Source: Acidihalobacter aeolianus (GTDB lineage: Bacteria > Pseudomonadota > Gammaproteobacteria > DSM-5130 > Acidihalobacteraceae). From it: a stretch of 64,000 nucleotides of DNA. The notes below the pieces were generated by a model. It did not search any database, was not told the DNA's origin, and was given only the letters and a program-made list of their open reading frames with translations. The stretch is taken from NCBI RefSeq assembly GCF_001753165.1, contig NZ_CP017448.1:700462-764461 (forward strand), given 5' to 3'. The position numbers were made by a program, and so were the translations under genes. Shown in pieces: positions 1 to 50,632 of the stretch (the stretch's first letter is position 1; each line of letters starts with the position of its first letter).

Positions 1-255
1 TTCGCGGCGGGGCGGCACGCCGTCGGCGCCGGTGCGCTGCGCTTCGTGCCTCGCGACGAGCTGGATCTGAATCGACTCGACGGGGCGATGGACGAGCTCG
101 AAAAGCTCAAGCCACCACTCAAGCGCCGTTTTCTCGATGCCTGCGCGGCCTGCATCGCCATGGACGGCGACGTCACCGTGGGCGGTGCCGAGCTGCTGCG
201 CACCGTGGCCGCGGCGCTGGACTGCCCCATGCCGCCGCCTTTGCCGCTTGCATAA
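1..255 (+). CDS. C-terminal end of a probable M48-family metallopeptidase (5' partial)
   Basis: The reading frame is open from the first base and ends at a TAA at 253-255, so this is the last 84 residues of a longer protein. The visible part is an alpha-helical segment containing LKRRFLDACAACIAMDG and ending in ALDCPMPPPL. I recall this kind of TerB-like tail on membrane-bound M48 (Ste24/HtpX-like) zinc peptidases of gammaproteobacteria. The HExxH catalytic part would lie upstream of the window, so the assignment rests on the tail alone and is tentative. Confidence 0.55.
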   Translation, partial: FAAGRHAVGAGALRFVPRDELDLNRLDGAMDELEKLKPPLKRRFLDACAACIAMDGDVTVGGAELLRTVAAALDCPMPPPLPLA

Positions 256-626
256 GGATCATGGCAATTTTTCACCATCCGAAGGTGGCATCGCACTTGT
301 GTCTATGCGTACTATCTGACGCTAGGTATCGCAGGCGCTGAGACGGGGTAGCGACGCCAGGTCAGGGAAACACAGAGGGTCCGATGCGCGGGCCTTGGAT
401 ATCCAAGTTATTGGGATAAATTGCCAGTGAGCCCCTATGGGCAATACCGCTTTCGATAGAGGGCATGTTTTCGAGTGGTATTTTTTCAATATTCATTGCT
501 ATTTCAATATTCCCTTTGGTTGCGTGATTATCACATCGCTGCTGATGTGTGGTTGGCATGGAAAACAAATTTTCAGATCTGCGGGTTTGAAAGCCCGATG
601 TTGACGATGAGTGTGCGGAGCGCGCA
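256..626. other. Intergenic region, AT-richer than its surroundings
   Basis: No convincing gene is visible in these 371 bp. The second half (about 470-600) is clearly richer in A and T than the flanking coding DNA and contains a small hairpin, CACATC-gctgct-GATGTG, near 532-549. It probably carries the promoter and leader of the HAD-UbiA gene that starts at 627. Short open frames on both strands show no recognisable protein features. Confidence 0.5.
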
Positions 627-2054
627 ATGAAGCCGTTGGTGGTTGATCTTGATGGGACGTTGATTAAAACGGATTTGTTGATGGAAACTGCAAATCGATT
701 TGTGACTAGAAACCCTTTTCGAATTTATAAAATTCTGCAATGGCTTGCTCGCGGTAAGGTGCACCTGAAATTGGAGTTGGCAGAGCGAGCCGGGGTGATC
801 CCGGCGTCGCTGCCATATCACGAATTCGTCGTCGATTGGCTAAAAGAGCAAAAATCGCAGGGCAGAACCTTGATCCTGGCGACGGCCAGTTGTCAGGCCT
901 TGGCGGATGAAGTGGCCGGGTATCTGGGTGTGTTTGATTCGGTTATGGGTACTGACGGTGATACCAATCTGAAGTCGCATGCCAAGCGCGATCGACTGGT
1001 CGAGCGCTTTGGACATAAAGGATTTGATTACGTAGGTAATGACTATGCGGACCTTTCCGTTTGGGAGTCGTCAGATCGCGCATACGTGGTGAGCAACGAT
1101 TCGGGTCTGGTAAAAAAGGCTCGCAATATCGGTAATGTCGAGCACGTGTTTGAAACCGGTAAACCCGGTTTTGTCGGTAGTATGTTGAAGGCCTTGCGCC
1201 CTCATCAGTGGGTTAAGAATTTTCTGGTATTCATACCCTTGATCATGGCGCAGCGTTATGGTGATGTCGGTAGCGTTTTTCAGGCGGTATTCGCTTTTCT
1301 GGTTTTCGGAATGACGGCATCGAGTGTCTATTTGCTCAACGACTTGGTGGACGTGGAGGATGACAGGCATCATGCACGCAAGCGGAAGAGACCCTTTGCC
1401 GCGGGCAATTTATCGCTCTTGCATGGGTGGCTAGCCTGGCCGATTGTGCTGTTGGCGGCATTTGGCGTTTCCTTGGCGATTTTACCGATAAAATTTGTCG
1501 GTGTGCTGGCCGTTTATTTCGGGCTCACCCTGGCTTACTCCTTCCGTCTCAAGCGTGCTGCGATGGTAGACGTCATTACGCTGGCGGCGCTGTACACCTT
1601 GCGCATCATCGCCGGCGCAGCCGCGATTTCCGTGCCGCTCTCGTTTTGGTTGCTGGCATTTTCGATGTTCATCTTTCTATCTCTTGCATTTATCAAGAGG
1701 TACAGTGAACTCAGGGTTGCTGCGGAGCGTGATAAACAGAAGTCCTTGCGCGGCAGAGGCTACAGCCCGGACGATCTCGAAGCGATTTCGACAATGGGCA
1801 TCGGCGCGGGGTACATGTCGGTATTGGTGCTGGCGCTTTATGTGAACAGCGATACGACAGCGGCTTTATACCGAAACCCGCACCTGATTTGGTTAGCCTG
1901 TCCGGTGCTGCTTTATTGGATATCTAGAGCCTGGCTGATCACGCACCGCGGCGAAATGCATGACGACCCGATCGTTTTTGCCTTGAAGGACCCCATGAGT
2001 TGGGCGATGGTGCTGACTCTGGTGGTTATTTTCGGGTTGGCGAAAATAACCTGA
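627..2054 (+). CDS. HAD-UbiA fusion: phosphatase-like domain plus prenyltransferase
   Basis: The 475-residue protein has two parts. Residues 1-170 form a HAD-type phosphatase domain: DLDGT at 7-11 gives the nucleophile Asp7 and acid/base Asp9, TAS is at 86-88, and GNDYAD at 137-142 is the metal-binding motif. Residues about 185-475 are a multi-spanning UbiA-type prenyltransferase with the prenyl-diphosphate motif NDLVDVEDD at 238-246. The family includes decaprenyl-phosphate phosphoribosyltransferase of arabinan synthesis, and HAD-UbiA fusions are known next to polysaccharide genes. A role moving a sugar phosphate onto a polyprenyl phosphate at the inner membrane is inference. The gene is AT-richer than its neighbours, which hints at horizontal acquisition. 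The ATG at 627 starts directly on the HAD core. Confidence 0.85.
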   Translation: MKPLVVDLDGTLIKTDLLMETANRFVTRNPFRIYKILQWLARGKVHLKLELAERAGVIPASLPYHEFVVDWLKEQKSQGRTLILATASCQALADEVAGYLGVFDSVMGTDGDTNLKSHAKRDRLVERFGHKGFDYVGNDYADLSVWESSDRAYVVSNDSGLVKKARNIGNVEHVFETGKPGFVGSMLKALRPHQWVKNFLVFIPLIMAQRYGDVGSVFQAVFAFLVFGMTASSVYLLNDLVDVEDDRHHARKRKRPFAAGNLSLLHGWLAWPIVLLAAFGVSLAILPIKFVGVLAVYFGLTLAYSFRLKRAAMVDVITLAALYTLRIIAGAAAISVPLSFWLLAFSMFIFLSLAFIKRYSELRVAAERDKQKSLRGRGYSPDDLEAISTMGIGAGYMSVLVLALYVNSDTTAALYRNPHLIWLACPVLLYWISRAWLITHRGEMHDDPIVFALKDPMSWAMVLTLVVIFGLAKIT

Positions 2055-2158
2055 CATTGGTATCTGGATAATCGAGCCTTCGTCATGTCCTCAACTGCGC
2101 GGTTGCACTTATCCCGTCAGCAGGAATTCCGTCTATGGCCTGCTCCGGTATTCAGGTT

Positions 2159-4600
2159 TCAGGTCACAGGGGAGCTGTCTTTGTCCAGGAATGATTCGAA
2201 TGTTCGAGCGTCTACGGGTCTGCCAATCAGATAGCCCTGGAAACGGGTACAGCCTAGAGTAGACAGTATTTCCATCTGCTGTTGGGTCTCGACGCCCTCC
2301 GCGATCACCCCGAGATTGAGTGCACCGGCCATAGCGAGCACTGCGCGTACGATGTTCCTGCCGCTGTCGTTGGTGGAGATGTCACGCACGAACGACTGAT
2401 CGATCTTGAGCTCGTCCAGCGGCAGGTGTTTGAGGTACTGGATCGAGGAATAGCCGGTGCCGAAATCGTCGAGCGAGAACTGGATGCCGATTTTCTTGAG
2501 AGCAGACATCGACTCGATGGTCTCCTCGATGTTGTCGAACAGCATGCTTTCGGTGAGTTCGAGCTTGATGTTCTCGGGCGGGATGGCGTGTCGCTCGATT
2601 GTGGCCCGGATGTCGTCGATGAATTTCCTGTTCTTGAACTGCTTGGCGCTGATATTGATCGCGAGCACCAGCCCATGGGTGCGTTCGTCCTGTTGCCACA
2701 AATGCAATTGACTGCAGGCAATGTCCAGCAGGTCGCGGCCCAGCTGCAGGATCAGGCCGGTTTCCTCGGCGATTGGGATGAACTGGCTGGGCGGAATATA
2801 CCCCCTTTGCGCGTGTTTCCAGCGCACCAGTGCTTCCGCGCCGACGAGCCGATTTTGGTCGTCTACCTCGGGTTGGTAATACAAGGTGATTTCCCGCTTG
2901 TCGATGGCCTTGCGCAGAGCCGATTCGAGACCTAGGCGCGTAGTCACGGTATCCCGCATATGCGGCTCATAAAAACAAATACTGCCTTGGCGATGGGTCT
3001 TGGCCTGATACATGGCCAGTTCGGCCTGCTTGAACAAATCCTCTATATTCCCGGTATCCCGGTCGAACAGCGTGATGCCGATGCGTGAGGTGTTGTGATA
3101 TTCGTTCGCCATCAATTTGAACGGGCGGTCCATGGTGAGCAGCATTTCCTTGGCGCGGGCTTCCGCGAGAGCGCTTGCTTCACTCCGCGAGGTACCTAGA
3201 TTGGTGAGTAGAACCGCGAATTCGTCGCTGCCGAGACGTGCGACGGTATCGTTCGGGCGAGTCTTGTTGCTGAGCCGCTTGCCGACGCTCTGCAGCAACA
3301 GGTCGCCGAAGGCGTGTCCCAGGCCGTCATTGAGAATGCGGAAGTTGTTCAGGTCGACGTGTAGCAGCGCGCCCCAGCGTGTTTTGTGTCCACTGGATTC
3401 GATGGCGCGCCGTAGATGCTTGAGTAGCAGGCTTTTGTTGGGCAATCCCGTCAAGGGGTCGTAGTGGGAGAGGTATTCGACCTTTTTTTCCGATTCTTTG
3501 CGTTTCGACTGATCGATCATGTAGGTGAGCAGGTGGAGTTCGCCGTTCAATTCGATCGTTCTGGTGGAAACATAAACGGGAAATTCCGAGCCGTCGGCGC
3601 GGTATGAGATTGATTCAAAGGTGGCGTTTGTGGTCGGTGTTGTGCGTATCTCCGGTGGTTGTCCGGTTTCGCGCAGCTGCAGAATTTCCGCAAGATGCGC
3701 ATTGGCGACATGCTGAATATCGCTGTAGCCATGCATTTCCAGGAAAATTGGATTGGCATCTATCAGCCTGCTCTGTCGCGTCAGCGCGATGCCTACTGGC
3801 GATTCTTCTATCAGCGTTCTGAAACGGCGTTCTGATTCGATGATTTTGCGTTGATTATCCCGCATTAACGCCATGCTGATGACGACGATCACGACGAAAA
3901 AACTGAATGCGCCGGGGGAGAACGAACGGAGTAGCGACAGCCTGACGGCCAAGCCCATCGAGCTGAATATACCGAAAAGCACGAAGGCCACCAGCATGTG
4001 CAAATCGACGCCCCGACGCCGAGCCCGATAGGTGTCAATGATATCGGCGAGCGATTTCGCATAAATCAGGGCGACCATGGCAATGGCGAAATAACCCCAG
4101 ATACTGTGGCGCCCAACGCCATGGGTGATTTGTTCGCCCCAGGGCAGTGGTGTGATTAACAAGGTGTCTAGATGCGCATACGAAATACCGAGGGGTAGGT
4201 AGATATTGAGTGCAATGCACCCTGCGATCATGAGGTTGACTACGATCAGATAAGCCTTGGAAATTTTGTGTGCGTAGGCAGCGGTAAACCAGGGAATCAG
4301 CAGAAAAACACCCAGCGAATACGTCACGTTCCACTTTAGGTCGGCGACGAAATTTGCGATGTCCGTCGACTGTATTACGAACGTACGGCTGATCGCCGAC
4401 ATGGCAACCAGCAGGGCTATGCCCGCAAAGAAAATATGCTGCATTTCGTGCTTGCGTGGTGGGCGGCCGAGCAGGTTGTTCAGCGCTGCAAATGTGCTGA
4501 CGCCGCCCAGGAAATACAGCGAATTGGTGATGAGATCCATCTTTATGCTTGGAATCTTGTCGCTCTGTATTGTGGGATGCGGTTTGTGAACGCCCGCCAT
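2159..4600 (-). CDS. Membrane-bound PAS-GGDEF-EAL cyclic-di-GMP protein
   Basis: This 813-residue protein starts with about 230 residues of hydrophobic helices (roughly seven membrane segments), followed by a PAS sensor domain (about 265-375), a GGDEF domain and a C-terminal EAL domain. The GGDEF active-site loop reads GSDEF near residue 460, a small deviation, with an RPND inhibitory site just upstream. The EAL domain keeps EAL (GAEALVRW) and DDFGTGYSS, so phosphodiesterase activity is likely. The longest start is at 4600. The ATG at 4540 (MDLITNSLYFLGG) begins right before the first membrane helix and is equally plausible, as neither has a strong ribosome binding site. It stands alone, divergent from the broken EAL gene at 5223. 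Confidence 0.9.
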   Translation of the reverse strand: MAGVHKPHPTIQSDKIPSIKMDLITNSLYFLGGVSTFAALNNLLGRPPRKHEMQHIFFAGIALLVAMSAISRTFVIQSTDIANFVADLKWNVTYSLGVFLLIPWFTAAYAHKISKAYLIVVNLMIAGCIALNIYLPLGISYAHLDTLLITPLPWGEQITHGVGRHSIWGYFAIAMVALIYAKSLADIIDTYRARRRGVDLHMLVAFVLFGIFSSMGLAVRLSLLRSFSPGAFSFFVVIVVISMALMRDNQRKIIESERRFRTLIEESPVGIALTRQSRLIDANPIFLEMHGYSDIQHVANAHLAEILQLRETGQPPEIRTTPTTNATFESISYRADGSEFPVYVSTRTIELNGELHLLTYMIDQSKRKESEKKVEYLSHYDPLTGLPNKSLLLKHLRRAIESSGHKTRWGALLHVDLNNFRILNDGLGHAFGDLLLQSVGKRLSNKTRPNDTVARLGSDEFAVLLTNLGTSRSEASALAEARAKEMLLTMDRPFKLMANEYHNTSRIGITLFDRDTGNIEDLFKQAELAMYQAKTHRQGSICFYEPHMRDTVTTRLGLESALRKAIDKREITLYYQPEVDDQNRLVGAEALVRWKHAQRGYIPPSQFIPIAEETGLILQLGRDLLDIACSQLHLWQQDERTHGLVLAINISAKQFKNRKFIDDIRATIERHAIPPENIKLELTESMLFDNIEETIESMSALKKIGIQFSLDDFGTGYSSIQYLKHLPLDELKIDQSFVRDISTNDSGRNIVRAVLAMAGALNLGVIAEGVETQQQMEILSTLGCTRFQGYLIGRPVDARTFESFLDKDSSPVT

Positions 4601-5222
4601 AGGTTCCGCAGTGTTAGTTTTTCGTTGTTTCCGCGGCGCACATTCTGCAGCTGGGACGTATTATGCTTATTCGTCCTCTCGGTGCATTGAGGCGCAGTGT
4701 AGCATTGTCCGACAATGATGATTACCCAGCCATTAGGCAATGTGCGTATGTCAAAATGGCGCAGTGTGATATTGCCTGGATGGTTTTTCTCCGCTGCCGT
4801 AGTGTGTTCTTTTAGTGGCAGGGGCTTCACCGAAATGTGCGGCGATCTATGCGCTTCCATACCTCCTCCGCTGGGTTTTTCGTTAGCGATTTTGTTGCGC
4901 CGTCGGCGGTCACGAAGCACACCAACTGCGCGCTCTGCGTGTCTGGTTCCGTGATTCGTGCACGGGATGACTGAACGATAATCCGGAACTGCCGCATGGA
5001 CAGATCGCTCGGCCGACTATTGGCGTTATCTGACGTTTTCCATTGATGCCTGCGCCCAGAACCGGGCGGTAGTCTCGGCTCCGTGAGCCCGATGACGCGA
5101 CCACATCCGCACACCGAGCGCTGTCACTCAAGGCTTGCAGCGGTGCCTGCCTCGTAAGTAACGAGGCGGAAAAGCGCCATCTTTCTGCCGGCGATCTATC
5201 GTTCGGGAGGCCGGGTTCTACC
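4601..5222. other. Intergenic region between divergent signalling genes
   Basis: This 622-bp stretch separates the GGDEF-EAL gene on the minus strand from the EAL-CZB remnant. Short open frames exist on both strands but none carries a recognisable motif. Complete EAL-CZB proteins usually have PAS and GGDEF domains upstream of EAL. I see no remnant of those here, so the missing N-terminal part was probably deleted rather than degraded in place. No riboswitch or RNA gene was recognised; in particular it does not fit the cyclic-di-GMP (GEMM) riboswitch. Confidence 0.4.
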
Positions 5223-6410
5223 GTGACCGCGAGCAACAAACTGGAACTGATTGCCGGTTCGCTGACCGCGCAGCGTCTGCGCGATGCGCTCCGTGACGAT
5301 GAGCTGCGTCTCGTCTACCAGCCCAAGGTCAACATGCGCAGCGGCAGGGTGGTCGGGGCAGAGGCACTGCAGCGCTGGCAGCATCCCGAGCACGGCGTGA
5401 TTCCGCCCTATCTGTTTCTGCCGCTGGCCGAGCGCGACGACCTGATCGTGGAAGTGGGCACCTGGGTGCTGCGTGCTGCGCTGCGTGAACTGGCACACTG
5501 GCGCGAACTCGGCATCGATCTCACGGTGAGCGTCAACATCGCACCGCGCCAGCTGTTGCATCCGGGATTTCTGACCACGCTGTAGCAGTGCCTGGCGGAC
5601 GAGCCCGATGCACACCCGACCCGACTGGAGCTGGAGATTCTCGAATCGGCGGCCTTGGACAATACACGACAGGTTCGTGAACTCATCGAGACGTGCCGGG
5701 AATGGGGAGTGACGTTCGCGCTTGACGATTTCGGTACCGGCTATTCCACGCTGTCCTACCTGCGTCAGATACCCGCCAACGTGCTGAAGATCGATCAGAG
5801 CTTAGTGCGCGATTTGCTCGAGGAAGAGGATGCGCGCACCCTCGTATCCGGGGGGATCGGGCTGGCACAGGCGTTTCGTCGCGAAGTGGTCGCCGAAGGC
5901 GTCGAGGAATCGGCGCAGGGGGCTCTGCTGATGCGCCTCGGCTGCGATGTGGCGCAGGGATTCGGCATCGCCCGCCCCATGCCGGCTCTCGATCTTCCGC
6001 GATGGATCGCCGACTACCGGCCGGATCCTGACTGGCAGGCCTGGATCGATGTGCCCTGGGATATCCAGGACCTGCCGTTGCTGGCGGCGCGTTTCGATCA
6101 CTGAACCTACGTCGAACACGTGCGGAAATATCTGAGCGGTGGAGAACTCAACCTCGCGCGCAGCGAGCTTGAGGACCATTGCCAGTGCCGTTTCGGCCGT
6201 TGGTATGACCACGAGGGAAAGTCCCGTTACGGCGACATGTCCGAGCTCCTCGCCATCGAGGAGGTTCACCGACATCTCCACGAAGTCGGTGTAGAGGCCG
6301 TTGCGCTCAAGGAGGACGGCAAGGACCACACGGAAATCGTCAAGAGTTTGCGTGCCATCCGCGACGAACTGGGCAGCCGTCTGCGCAGCCTGCAGCCGAG
6401 CCGTGTACAG
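5223..6410 (+). pseudogene. EAL phosphodiesterase with C-terminal CZB zinc domain, broken by two in-frame stops
   Basis: One reading frame encodes an EAL domain (YQPKVNMRSG, GAEALQRW, then DDFGTGYSTLSYLRQIP and VVAEGVEESAQG) and then a chemoreceptor zinc-binding (CZB) domain with HCQCRFGRWYDHEG followed by a His-rich helix (EEVHRHLHEVG). The frame is interrupted by TAG at 5583 within EAL and TGA at 6102 at the EAL-CZB border; the protein sequence continues in the same frame after each. The catalytic residues of EAL are otherwise intact. The PAS-GGDEF part usual for this architecture is absent. The frame continues past the CZB domain but loses family resemblance near 6410. A GTG at 5223 could start the first fragment. 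Most likely a decayed gene; read-through of both stops is less likely. Confidence 0.8.
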
Positions 6411-6471
6411 GCAGAGCATTGTGCAGCGCGCCAAGCCCGCGGCCAGTCGCCTGGCCGCCGGGCTCACGTCG

Positions 6472-7221
6472 GTGCAGCCGATCTGCATCCTGATCGTCGA
6501 CGATGCCCCGAGCATCGAGCTGGACAAGTTGGTAGAGACCCTGCTGGTCTGGATCAGACCCCGCGAGGCGGGAAGTGATGGATCATCGGGTGCTGTCTCT
6601 CACGCGGCTTTCGAGCCCACGGTGCCGTCCCTTCCGGGGCTCGATCTTGAGCGCGCCGCTGGGCAGCTGGGTGGCGATCAGCGACTTTTGCGCAGCGTGC
6701 TTGAAAGTTTCCGCCGCGATTTTTCCGATGCGCCGGTACGTGTACAGGAATTGATCGAGCTGGGCCAGCTGCCCGATGCCGCACGGATGGTGCATACGAT
6801 CAAGGGTCTGGCTCCGAACCTCGGGGCTCCCGCCCTGGCCGTCGCCGCTGCCGAGTATGAGGCTGCGCTCAGGCAGGGCGACGCCCAGGCTGAGCTGCAC
6901 GGCCGGTTCATCCAGACCCTGACGGAGGTGCTCGCAACATTGGACGGACTGGAGTCAGAGCCGACCCGTGAGCCGGTGGCGTCGTCCACGGCGGCTACGC
7001 CAGAGGACCTCGAAACGCTGCGTGCGCTGGCGGCAAATCTGGACCAGTCGGTCATCATTTCCCAACTGCAGAAGGATCGGGTGGCGTCGGTGCTGCATGG
7101 TCGCATCGACGCTGTGCAGATCGATAAGCTCTTTACCGCCATCAGCCATCTCGACTATAGCGAGGCGGCCCGCGTCCTTGGTGGGATATTGCGTGAACTG
7201 CGCGGCACAAAGACGGCCTGA
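6472..7221 (+). pseudogene. Receiver-HPt signalling protein with most of the receiver domain deleted
   Basis: The fragment opens with VQPICILIVDDAPSI, the first strand and acidic pocket of a CheY-like receiver domain. It then jumps directly to DKLVETLLVWIRP, the usual tail and linker after a receiver domain. About 100 residues, including the phosphorylated aspartate, are missing in frame. The rest is a normal HPt domain with phosphoacceptor motif HTIKGLAPNLGA and a helical C-terminus of about 80 residues. GTG 6472 is a possible start without a clear ribosome binding site. The HPt part could still be made. The full-length ancestor was probably the C-terminal part of a hybrid sensor kinase, or a stand-alone REC-HPt protein. 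Confidence 0.65.
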
Positions 7222-7608
7222 TCAGTCATCGGCAGGCAGTCGGCCCAGACGTTCGTCGAACACCCAGCGGTAGGGGGCAAAGGTCTTTTGGGCGATGGCT
7301 TCGCTGGCCAGCCCGAAGGGTTCGGCTGTTGCCTCGGCATGGCGGCCGGCATCCGCGAGCGTCAGGGCCTTGAACATCGGCAGTACGTGGTAACCAGGGA
7401 ATTCCTCGGCGCCTCGTTCCAGCCAATGTAGGGAGCTTTCGTAGTCGCCGATATTGCGGTAGGACGAGCCAAGGCCGACATAGGCAGGCAGTCGGCGCGA
7501 TTTGCGCAGGCCGAGGGCCAGAGCCTGTTCGTACAGAGGAATCGCCTCGCTTTCCCTGCCCGCCTTGTCCAGGGCAAAGGCCGAATCCAGAATGTCGTCG
7601 GCGTCCAT
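7222..7608 (-). CDS. Small tetratricopeptide-repeat protein
   Basis: A 128-residue protein made of about three TPR-like helical hairpins, with typical positions in EAIPLYEQALALG, AYVGLGSSYRNIGDYESSL and HVLPMFKALTLADAGRHAEA. No signal peptide or membrane segment is visible, so it is probably a cytoplasmic protein-interaction module. Small stand-alone TPR proteins of this kind occur widely, mostly without known function. It lies upstream of and in the same direction as nothing obvious: its stop abuts that of the REC-HPt remnant, and thrC lies downstream of its start on the same strand. The ATG at 7608 fits the beginning of the first helix. Confidence 0.75.
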   Translation of the reverse strand: MDADDILDSAFALDKAGRESEAIPLYEQALALGLRKSRRLPAYVGLGSSYRNIGDYESSLHWLERGAEEFPGYHVLPMFKALTLADAGRHAEATAEPFGLASEAIAQKTFAPYRWVFDERLGRLPADD

Positions 7609-7690
7609 GGCGCTCCTTCCTGCCGCCCGGTTGCGGCTATTGCGTTTGGATGCGCCAGCGGGCGGAAAGTTGCGCTCGCGCGGTGCAGGC

Positions 7691-9160
7691 TTAGATGAAA
7701 CCCAGCACCGCCTCTTCGATCTCGGCCTTGTCGATCACCTCGCCCTGGGTGACCGGCTTGTCGAACAGGGCCTGGATGCGCGCGGGGATACGGGTGCCGG
7801 CGCGCGCCGCAATGGCCGCGAGGGCGTCGATGTCGCGGGCCCCGGTCTCGCCGGTCAGCGCGTTGGCGATGGTCGGCGAGAACTTGGTCCACTCGGCGGT
7901 GGAGTAGGCGATGGTGACGAGCGGTCGCTCGCGGCAGGTGTCGTAGGCCTTGAAGCAGGTGGCGGTGTGCGGGTCCATGAGGTAGCCGCCGTCGAAGGTC
8001 TCGCAGATGTAGCGCCGGCCCTCGTCGTCGTCGCACCAGTCGGCGGCGAAGATCGCCTGCAGCCTGGCGAGTTCGTCGGCGTCAAGCTCGTAGTGACGCT
8101 CCTCGTCCAGCTGCTGCATTAGCTCGCGGGTGCGTTCGGGACCGTAGAGGTCGAACAGCACGCGCTCGACATTGGAGGACTTGAGAATGTCCATGGCCGG
8201 CGAGCTGGTGGGGATCACGCCACGGCTGCGCAGGTCGTAGCAGCCGTGGCGGATCAGTTCGGTGAGCACGTTGTTGCGGTTGGAGGCGATCAGGATCTTT
8301 TCCACCGGCAGCCCCATGCGCATCGCATAGTAGCCGCCGAGGGCGTTGCCGAAGTTGCCGCTGGGCACGTCGAGGTAGACCTTGTCGCCGAACGCGATCG
8401 CGCCCTGGCGCACCAGCTCCAGATAACTGTGGATGTGGTAGATCTGCTGGAACACGATGCGCCCGAAGTTCACCGAGTTGGCGGCCGAGAGCAGGGTGTG
8501 CTTTTCCTTCAGCCTGGCGCGGAAGGTGTCGGAACCGAGCAGGTTCTTGAGCGCCGACTGGGCATCGTCGAAGTCGCCGTGGATGCCGATGACCTTCAGG
8601 TTGGCGGCGTCCTCGGTGACCATCTGCAGGCGCTGCACGTCGGAGGTGCCGCCGTCGGGGTAGAGGCAGGCGACCTTGACGTTGGGCCGGTTCTTGAAGG
8701 TCTCCAACGTGGCCGGGCCGGTATCGCCGCTGGTGGCGGCCATGATGAGGTAGTGCTCGCCGCGGCGCTGCGCCAGCGCCGACAGGATCGCGCCGAAGGG
8801 CTGCAGGGCCATGTCCTTGAAGGCGCGCGTGGGGCCGTGGTACAGCTCGCTGACGTAGAGATCGTCGCGCACCTTCACCACCGGAACCGGATTGCTCGGG
8901 TCGTCGAAGCCGTCGTACAGGGCCAGCGCCTCGTCGATGAGGGCGGCGTCGACGTCGAGCTCGAAGGCGGCGAGCACGTCGCGGGCCAGGGTCTTGTAGT
9001 CGCTGTCGAGGTGTGCGCGCAGGAATTCCAGGCCCAGTTGCGGCAGCCGTTCGGGCACGTAGATGCCGCCGAAGGACGACATGGGGTTGAGGATGGCCTC
9101 GGAGAAGCCGACCTGGGCCGGGCGCCGACCGTCGTTGCCGCGGGTTTCGATGAGGTTCAT
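7691..9160 (-). CDS. thrC: Threonine synthase
   Basis: The enzyme converts O-phospho-L-homoserine to L-threonine with pyridoxal phosphate. The 489-residue protein belongs to the long bacterial/yeast-type class. It has the N-terminal GFSEAILNPMSSFGGIYVPE segment, the PLP lysine in TRAFKDMALQPFG (Lys115), and the SGDTGPA and SGNFGNALGGYYA phosphate-binding loops. I chose the ATG at 9160 because MNLIETRGNDGRRPAQVGF matches the normal family start; an upstream frame to 9208 adds 16 unlikely residues. hom and thrB are not in the window. Housekeeping biosynthetic gene with no visible anomaly. Confidence 0.95.
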   Translation of the reverse strand: MNLIETRGNDGRRPAQVGFSEAILNPMSSFGGIYVPERLPQLGLEFLRAHLDSDYKTLARDVLAAFELDVDAALIDEALALYDGFDDPSNPVPVVKVRDDLYVSELYHGPTRAFKDMALQPFGAILSALAQRRGEHYLIMAATSGDTGPATLETFKNRPNVKVACLYPDGGTSDVQRLQMVTEDAANLKVIGIHGDFDDAQSALKNLLGSDTFRARLKEKHTLLSAANSVNFGRIVFQQIYHIHSYLELVRQGAIAFGDKVYLDVPSGNFGNALGGYYAMRMGLPVEKILIASNRNNVLTELIRHGCYDLRSRGVIPTSSPAMDILKSSNVERVLFDLYGPERTRELMQQLDEERHYELDADELARLQAIFAADWCDDDEGRRYICETFDGGYLMDPHTATCFKAYDTCRERPLVTIAYSTAEWTKFSPTIANALTGETGARDIDALAAIAARAGTRIPARIQALFDKPVTQGEVIDKAEIEEAVLGFI

Positions 9161-49729: not shown

Positions 49730-50632
49730 ATGAATGACGTCGATTGGCGCCGCGTGCGTATTTTCCTGGCCGTTGCCGTTGCCGGCAGTCTGTCCGCGGC
49801 GGCCCGTGAGCTGGGTCTTTCGCAACCGACCCTGAGCAGGGAGATGCTGGCGCTGGAGCGCGAAACCGGGGTCAATCTCCTGCGCCGTACGAAACAGGGC
49901 GTGAGCCTGACCGAGGCCGGCGAACGCCTGGTCGAAACCGCGGCAAGGATGGGGCGGGCTGCGGGCGATTTTGCCCGCGAGGCTGCGGGCATTTCCGCCG
50001 AGACGGTGGGTGACGTCCGGGTCAGCGTCAACGAGGTGCTGGGTACCTATCTGCTGCCGGCCGCGCTGGCGGCGCTGCGCCGCCGTCATCCGGGCATCCG
50101 GGTGGATGTGGTGATCAGCAATCGCGTCGCCAGTCTCGACCGCGGCGAGGCGGATATCGCGCTGCGCATGTTCCGTCCGGCGCAGGCCGATCTGGTGGTG
50201 CGTCGGCTCGCCGACATGCCGCTGGGTTTTTATGCGCACCGGGATTACGTGGCCCGGCACGGCGATCCGGCCCATTGGGGCGATTTGGTCGGGCACAGCG
50301 TGATCGGCAACGATCTTGACGCCGATTTCATCGAGGGTGCTTCGCGCATGGGCCTGGAGATCACGCGTGACGATTTCAGCCTGCGTTGCGATCATCTGCC
50401 GACGCAGATCGAACTGGCGCGGGCGGGCGCGGGCATCTGTGCCATGCACCAGGGGCTTGCCGTGCGTTGGCCGGAGCTGGTTCCGGTCATGAGCTGGCTG
50501 CAGCTGCCGGCGCTCGAATGCTGGTGCGTGGCGCATCGCGATGTCCGGCGCAATCCGGCGATCGGGGCCACGATGCGTCATTTGGCCGATTGGTTCGAGA
50601 GCGACCCGTATGCCCTGTCGCGCGCCACTTGA
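49730..50632 (+). CDS. LysR-type transcriptional regulator
   Basis: The 300-residue protein has a complete N-terminal winged helix-turn-helix (residues 1-65, RRVRIFLAVAVAGSLSAAARELGLSQPTLS in part) and a C-terminal effector-binding domain. Its ATG is 91 bp from the start of the divergent epimerase gene, the usual layout for a LysR regulator and its target. The effector is unknown. Confidence 0.92.
   Translation: MNDVDWRRVRIFLAVAVAGSLSAAARELGLSQPTLSREMLALERETGVNLLRRTKQGVSLTEAGERLVETAARMGRAAGDFAREAAGISAETVGDVRVSVNEVLGTYLLPAALAALRRRHPGIRVDVVISNRVASLDRGEADIALRMFRPAQADLVVRRLADMPLGFYAHRDYVARHGDPAHWGDLVGHSVIGNDLDADFIEGASRMGLEITRDDFSLRCDHLPTQIELARAGAGICAMHQGLAVRWPELVPVMSWLQLPALECWCVAHRDVRRNPAIGATMRHLADWFESDPYALSRAT

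Follow-up and report, generated by a model that had tools for sequence, protein, structure and literature searches.

One of the closest described systems is the EAL-CZB group of CZB proteins, for which the available text of PMC8262984 gives a 3His/1Cys core and the motif Cx(L/F)GxW(Y/L). The window analysed here, a 64,000-nucleotide stretch of the Acidihalobacter aeolianus genome (NZ_CP017448.1), encodes a CZB domain that shares both the core and the motif. Unlike the EAL-CZB group as it is presented in that text, the gene in the window is interrupted by stop codons and a product is not expected.

Scanning GTDB genomes gave 315 matching stretches; a relative is encoded by 264 of these, and the best 80 loci were retained. 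Some match was found in 30 of 37 genomes (the genome of the window included). The closest relatives, both from MAGs, are L024 (JAIFLB010000019.1; 54% identity, residues 3-395) and L025 (CAISDD010000507.1; 56% identity, residues 19-396). They are single open reading frames of 888 and 737 residues, respectively, with the domain order EAL, CZB, REC, GGDEF, and in L024 a PAS domain precedes EAL. The window has the same EAL-CZB order, with REC sequence at the matching place. Whereas the frames of L024 and L025 include a complete REC and GGDEF, the window has a frame change as well as two stops, and neither the remainder of REC nor a GGDEF was recognised. No close intact orthologue was found in the GTDB scan, these two being the best matches; in the two other species of the genus that were compared no orthologue was seen, and the best-scoring matches were 37% identical.

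An EAL-CZB frame with two stop codons

The features of the EAL-CZB part are as follows.

5223..6410, plus strand: EAL-CZB portion of the disrupted gene; 396 codons counted from GTG 5223, including the two stops
5271..5978, plus strand: EAL domain, by profile match and catalytic-type residues
E 5361, N 5535, E 5634, D 5724, K 5787, E 5895, Q 5955, plus strand: catalytic-type residues of the EAL domain, located in the sequence
5583..5585, plus strand: in-frame TAG at residue 121, a highly variable EAL position
6099..6302, plus strand: CZB domain, profile match 6108-6302
His 6099, Cys 6186 in CRFGRWY, His 6267, His 6279, plus strand: CZB ligand-type residues, giving the 3His/1Cys core with its motif
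6102..6104, plus strand: in-frame TGA at residue 294, directly 3' of the first zinc-ligand-type His, at a position of ordinary variability

As the first-pass annotation had reported, both stops are present in the assembly: reading from GTG 5223, the frame runs open as far as the TAG, from there to the TGA, and again past 6410. The TAG is flanked by two halves of an EAL domain, scoring 102.3 bits (profile 2-104) and 119.1 bits (profile 113-236) with Pfam. Read across the TAG, they make up a full-length EAL domain (PF00563) of 234.4 bits (profile 2-236), which ranks tenth of 36 EAL matches in a profile search of the genome, 35 of them above the cut-off. The third piece, after the TGA, matches CZB (PF13682) with 50.8 bits against a cut-off of 29.4.

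We take residues E, N, E, DD, K, E and Q of EAL domains to have catalytic roles, and the assignment of the CZB histidines above as zinc ligands is likewise in part our assumption. All seven catalytic-type EAL residues checked and the zinc-ligand-type residues are kept. The uninterrupted frame of a working EAL phosphodiesterase is nevertheless lost at TAG 5583 and TGA 6102. If the gene is translated at all, its first product would be half an EAL domain of 120 residues, expected to have no phosphodiesterase activity because it contains only E 5361 and N 5535 and lacks the other five of the seven residues.

The residues around both stops had also been described as conserved, which does not agree with the relatives. 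Across 99 relatives, position 121, that of the TAG, is occupied by 15 different amino acids and ranks among the 15 most variable of the 238 EAL positions. At position 294, that of the TGA, variability is ordinary, since 52 of 85 positions of the CZB region are at least as variable among six EAL-CZB relatives; R occurs there in 10 of the 15 relatives that have an aligned residue.

GTG 5223 is possibly the native start. Upstream of it, tblastn with L024 gave no PAS match at 4600-5228. An eight-residue L024 match at 4130-4153 (E 4.1), a candidate PAS remnant, was taken as chance.

A frame change and a junction with a second gene

Downstream of CZB three further features were distinguished.

6411..6477, plus strand: region of the shift between the EAL-CZB frame and the homologous frame that follows, located to the region and not to an exact base
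6478..6513, plus strand: start of a REC domain, PICILIVDDAPS, in a frame other than that of EAL-CZB
6514..7221, plus strand: tail of a hybrid-sensor-like gene, consisting of a REC end, IELDKLVETLLVWI, and then Hpt (His at 6793-6795), stop codon included

The EAL-CZB frame itself continues past CZB to a stop at 6576-6578. In this frame the tblastn alignment with L025 extends to 6527, with low similarity after about 6410. Homology in one frame across both stops, as first proposed, stands as far as EAL and CZB are concerned, and is lost past CZB, where the frame changes. The gene had also been taken to end near 6410; its relatives run on into REC and GGDEF, and here the REC start follows in another frame. 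A complete REC and GGDEF in one frame after CZB is absent, and the 247-residue tail contains no REC and no GGDEF according to Pfam. An 18-residue L024 match at 7606-7659 (E 0.067) was considered as a GGDEF remnant and attributed to chance, since a conserved minus-strand ORF runs through this site.

The REC start was compared with both relatives. By tblastn it aligns with L025 at E 1.5 (52% identity over 29 columns) in a frame that differs from that of EAL-CZB, and L024 gave no match to it at E up to 10. In direct comparisons, block shuffling reached the score once in 2000 trials with L025 and four times in 2000 with L024. Among 672 overlapping plus-strand stretches of the window, the L025 score was reached in two, both containing the site, and the L024 score in four, two of them near 50256. 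A stretch near 50256-50540, which scores as high against the L024 REC start as the REC start described here, is possibly another REC.

After 12 residues the REC start passes into the REC end and then into Hpt. The Hpt part scores 36.4 bits with Pfam and keeps the motif HTIKG, and its frame (6295-7221) is open up to its stop. Within the class, 58 of 274 genomes contain a match to the tail, counting the genome of the window and that of the nearest species compared, G002. Of eight tail-match loci, one is the window itself, and six of the other seven were read (L163-L166, L168 and L169; 26-35% identity). By eye, all six have a REC end, with KP and a helix like those of the window, ahead of the Hpt part. 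The window differs from them in that the front part is missing and the tail is joined to an EAL-CZB remnant. These relatives are putative hybrid sensors, named from their length and domain order. G002 retains only the last 36 residues of the tail (64% identical), beside the same threonine-synthase gene.

Because the REC start, in its other frame, turns into a REC end followed by Hpt, the locus appears to be the wreck of two genes. We consider it very likely that it is a pseudogene in which the front of an EAL-CZB-REC(-GGDEF) gene, with two nonsense codons and a frame change, is joined to the end of a hybrid-sensor-like gene (REC end and Hpt). The stops, the domains, the frame change with respect to the intact relatives and the REC start abutting a REC end are direct observations. 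Points against the pseudogene reading are the shortness of the REC start and its weak tblastn E-value, the lack of a tblastn match to it with L024, the low-similarity extension of the L025 alignment to 6527 in the EAL-CZB frame, and the open Hpt frame. The ancestor at the locus would have had a full REC and GGDEF after EAL-CZB, a layout that we infer for the genus since no intact orthologue closer than the two MAG relatives was found. A deletion would then have joined the two parts, perhaps at the short IEL-coding stretch at 6514, because in relatives the REC start contains NIEL and the REC end KPI(D/N). The locus would make no functional enzyme. The first-pass annotation had seen decay by substitution only, with the frame kept; that description fails just downstream, at the frame change and the junction to part of another gene.

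Read-through, sequencing error and the Hpt end

The first-pass annotation had offered read-through as an option. Both stops would then be decoded, giving small amounts of the complete EAL-CZB protein. Neither the catalytic-type residues nor the CZB ligands have been lost, the sequence is only slightly decayed, and a survey of in-frame stops in bacterial genes reports, in its available text, that many are retained by purifying selection (PMC7918605); these points speak for it. However, two different stops would have to be decoded, and even then the homologous frame breaks before REC. An anticodon for UAG or UGA was seen in none of the 43 tRNAs found with ARAGORN, a list that is incomplete by three against the 46 given for the genome in the available text of PMC5255921; a GAT (Ile) anticodon is also absent from it. 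For a selenocysteine system, the genome search gave nine SelB matches, the best at 189.1 against a cut-off of 242.25, and 14 tRNA-Sec matches, the best at 45.7 against 47 and identified by ARAGORN as tRNA-Ser, so that neither component lies above its cut-off. Moreover, an in-frame stop lies inside two of the 36 EAL matches of the genome, and the second of these sits in a frame-shifted gene. With no suppressor in the 43 tRNAs, no SelB or tRNA-Sec above cut-off and a frame that breaks downstream, read-through of EAL-CZB is unlikely, and decoding of both stops seems to us highly improbable. Its product would be an under-expressed zinc- or oxidant-responsive phosphodiesterase severed from its REC-GGDEF half, to which we give very little credence. 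The locus also illustrates that in-frame stops on their own may point to read-through when a frame change and a gene junction close by go unnoticed.

Errors in an intact gene deserve equally little weight as the source of the stops and the frame change. The assembly is a hybrid of Illumina and PacBio data with chromosome coverage of about 18-fold, according to the available text of PMC5255921, which leaves some room for error. Yet two nonsense changes, a frame change and a two-gene junction within 1.3 kb must then all be errors, and a junction between two genes is no base error. It is doubtful, and less improbable than either of these, that the Hpt end (6295-7221) is a working short Hpt protein and EAL-CZB alone is dead, which would be compatible with the pseudogene reading. 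A shortened Hpt protein could be made, the frame being open to its stop with HTIKG kept. On the other side, it begins inside a REC domain, no start of its own was recognised (judged without a tool), G002 has lost all but the end of the tail, and no close homologue of the Hpt end was found for a selection test. On the pseudogene reading the locus is an unremarkable case of a c-di-GMP signalling gene being lost from a genome that has 36 EAL matches.

Degree of decay and surroundings of the locus

The first-pass annotation had proposed a very recent inactivation. Of the 50 EAL columns with conservation of 85% or higher across 99 relatives, 46 are retained in the window; the proportion retained is no higher in 23 of the 99 relatives, and its median is 96%. 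With the threshold raised to 95%, the window retains 29 of 31 columns, with six of the 99 relatives as low or lower and a median of 100%. In relative-rate counts the window had more unique changes than the relative in six of eight comparisons, three of them above a chi-square of 3.84; the two reversed comparisons, in which the window had fewer unique changes, used outgroup L026. Control counts for L024 versus L025 were 24/23, 19/27, 17/30 and 23/16. L024 and L025 share 65% identity over the CZB region, and the window has 44% identity with either one. Since the EAL part is little eroded, the loss may be recent, and the slight erosion fits a fairly recent loss; greater phylogenetic distance would give a similar picture. 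Of the proposal, a fairly recent inactivation is what fits; the rate acceleration is weak and depends on the outgroup.

The genome consists of two contigs of 3,363,634 and 162,484 bases. Comparison with G002 places the locus within the following block.

249..7135, no strand: block with only short matches among the G002 candidates scored, which lie inside EAL/GGDEF genes

The flanks of the block match different G002 contigs (96% and 94%): similarity resumes at 7136, at 95% to 9206, and positions 1-248 correspond to another contig. With 40 of 113 first-look candidates scored, no orthologue was seen at the same place in G002. The block boundary may mark a rearrangement or a lineage-specific insertion.

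Gene decay is not unique to the EAL-CZB locus, since a PAS-PAS-PAS-GGDEF-EAL gene lies in pieces 5-8 kb to the left of the window start (contig positions 692882-695532; L021:4883-7533). Two in-frame stops and one or more frame changes interrupt it, and its domain order is kept. Further to the left, at L113:8510-11197 (contig C1:684509-687196), a DEAD-type helicase match is split between two open frames; it ends at profile position 53 and resumes at 53 about 0.8 kb on, as if by an insertion between.

No Rfam match at gathering score and, with ARAGORN, no tRNA was found in the window. At 627-2054 the window encodes a protein of 475 residues that combines a UbiA prenyltransferase part with a HAD-like front; in the two other species of the genus compared, its UbiA part alone is matched (31-33%). 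The region 4600-7700 contains ten direct-repeat families (25 bases or less) and one 15-base inverted pair.
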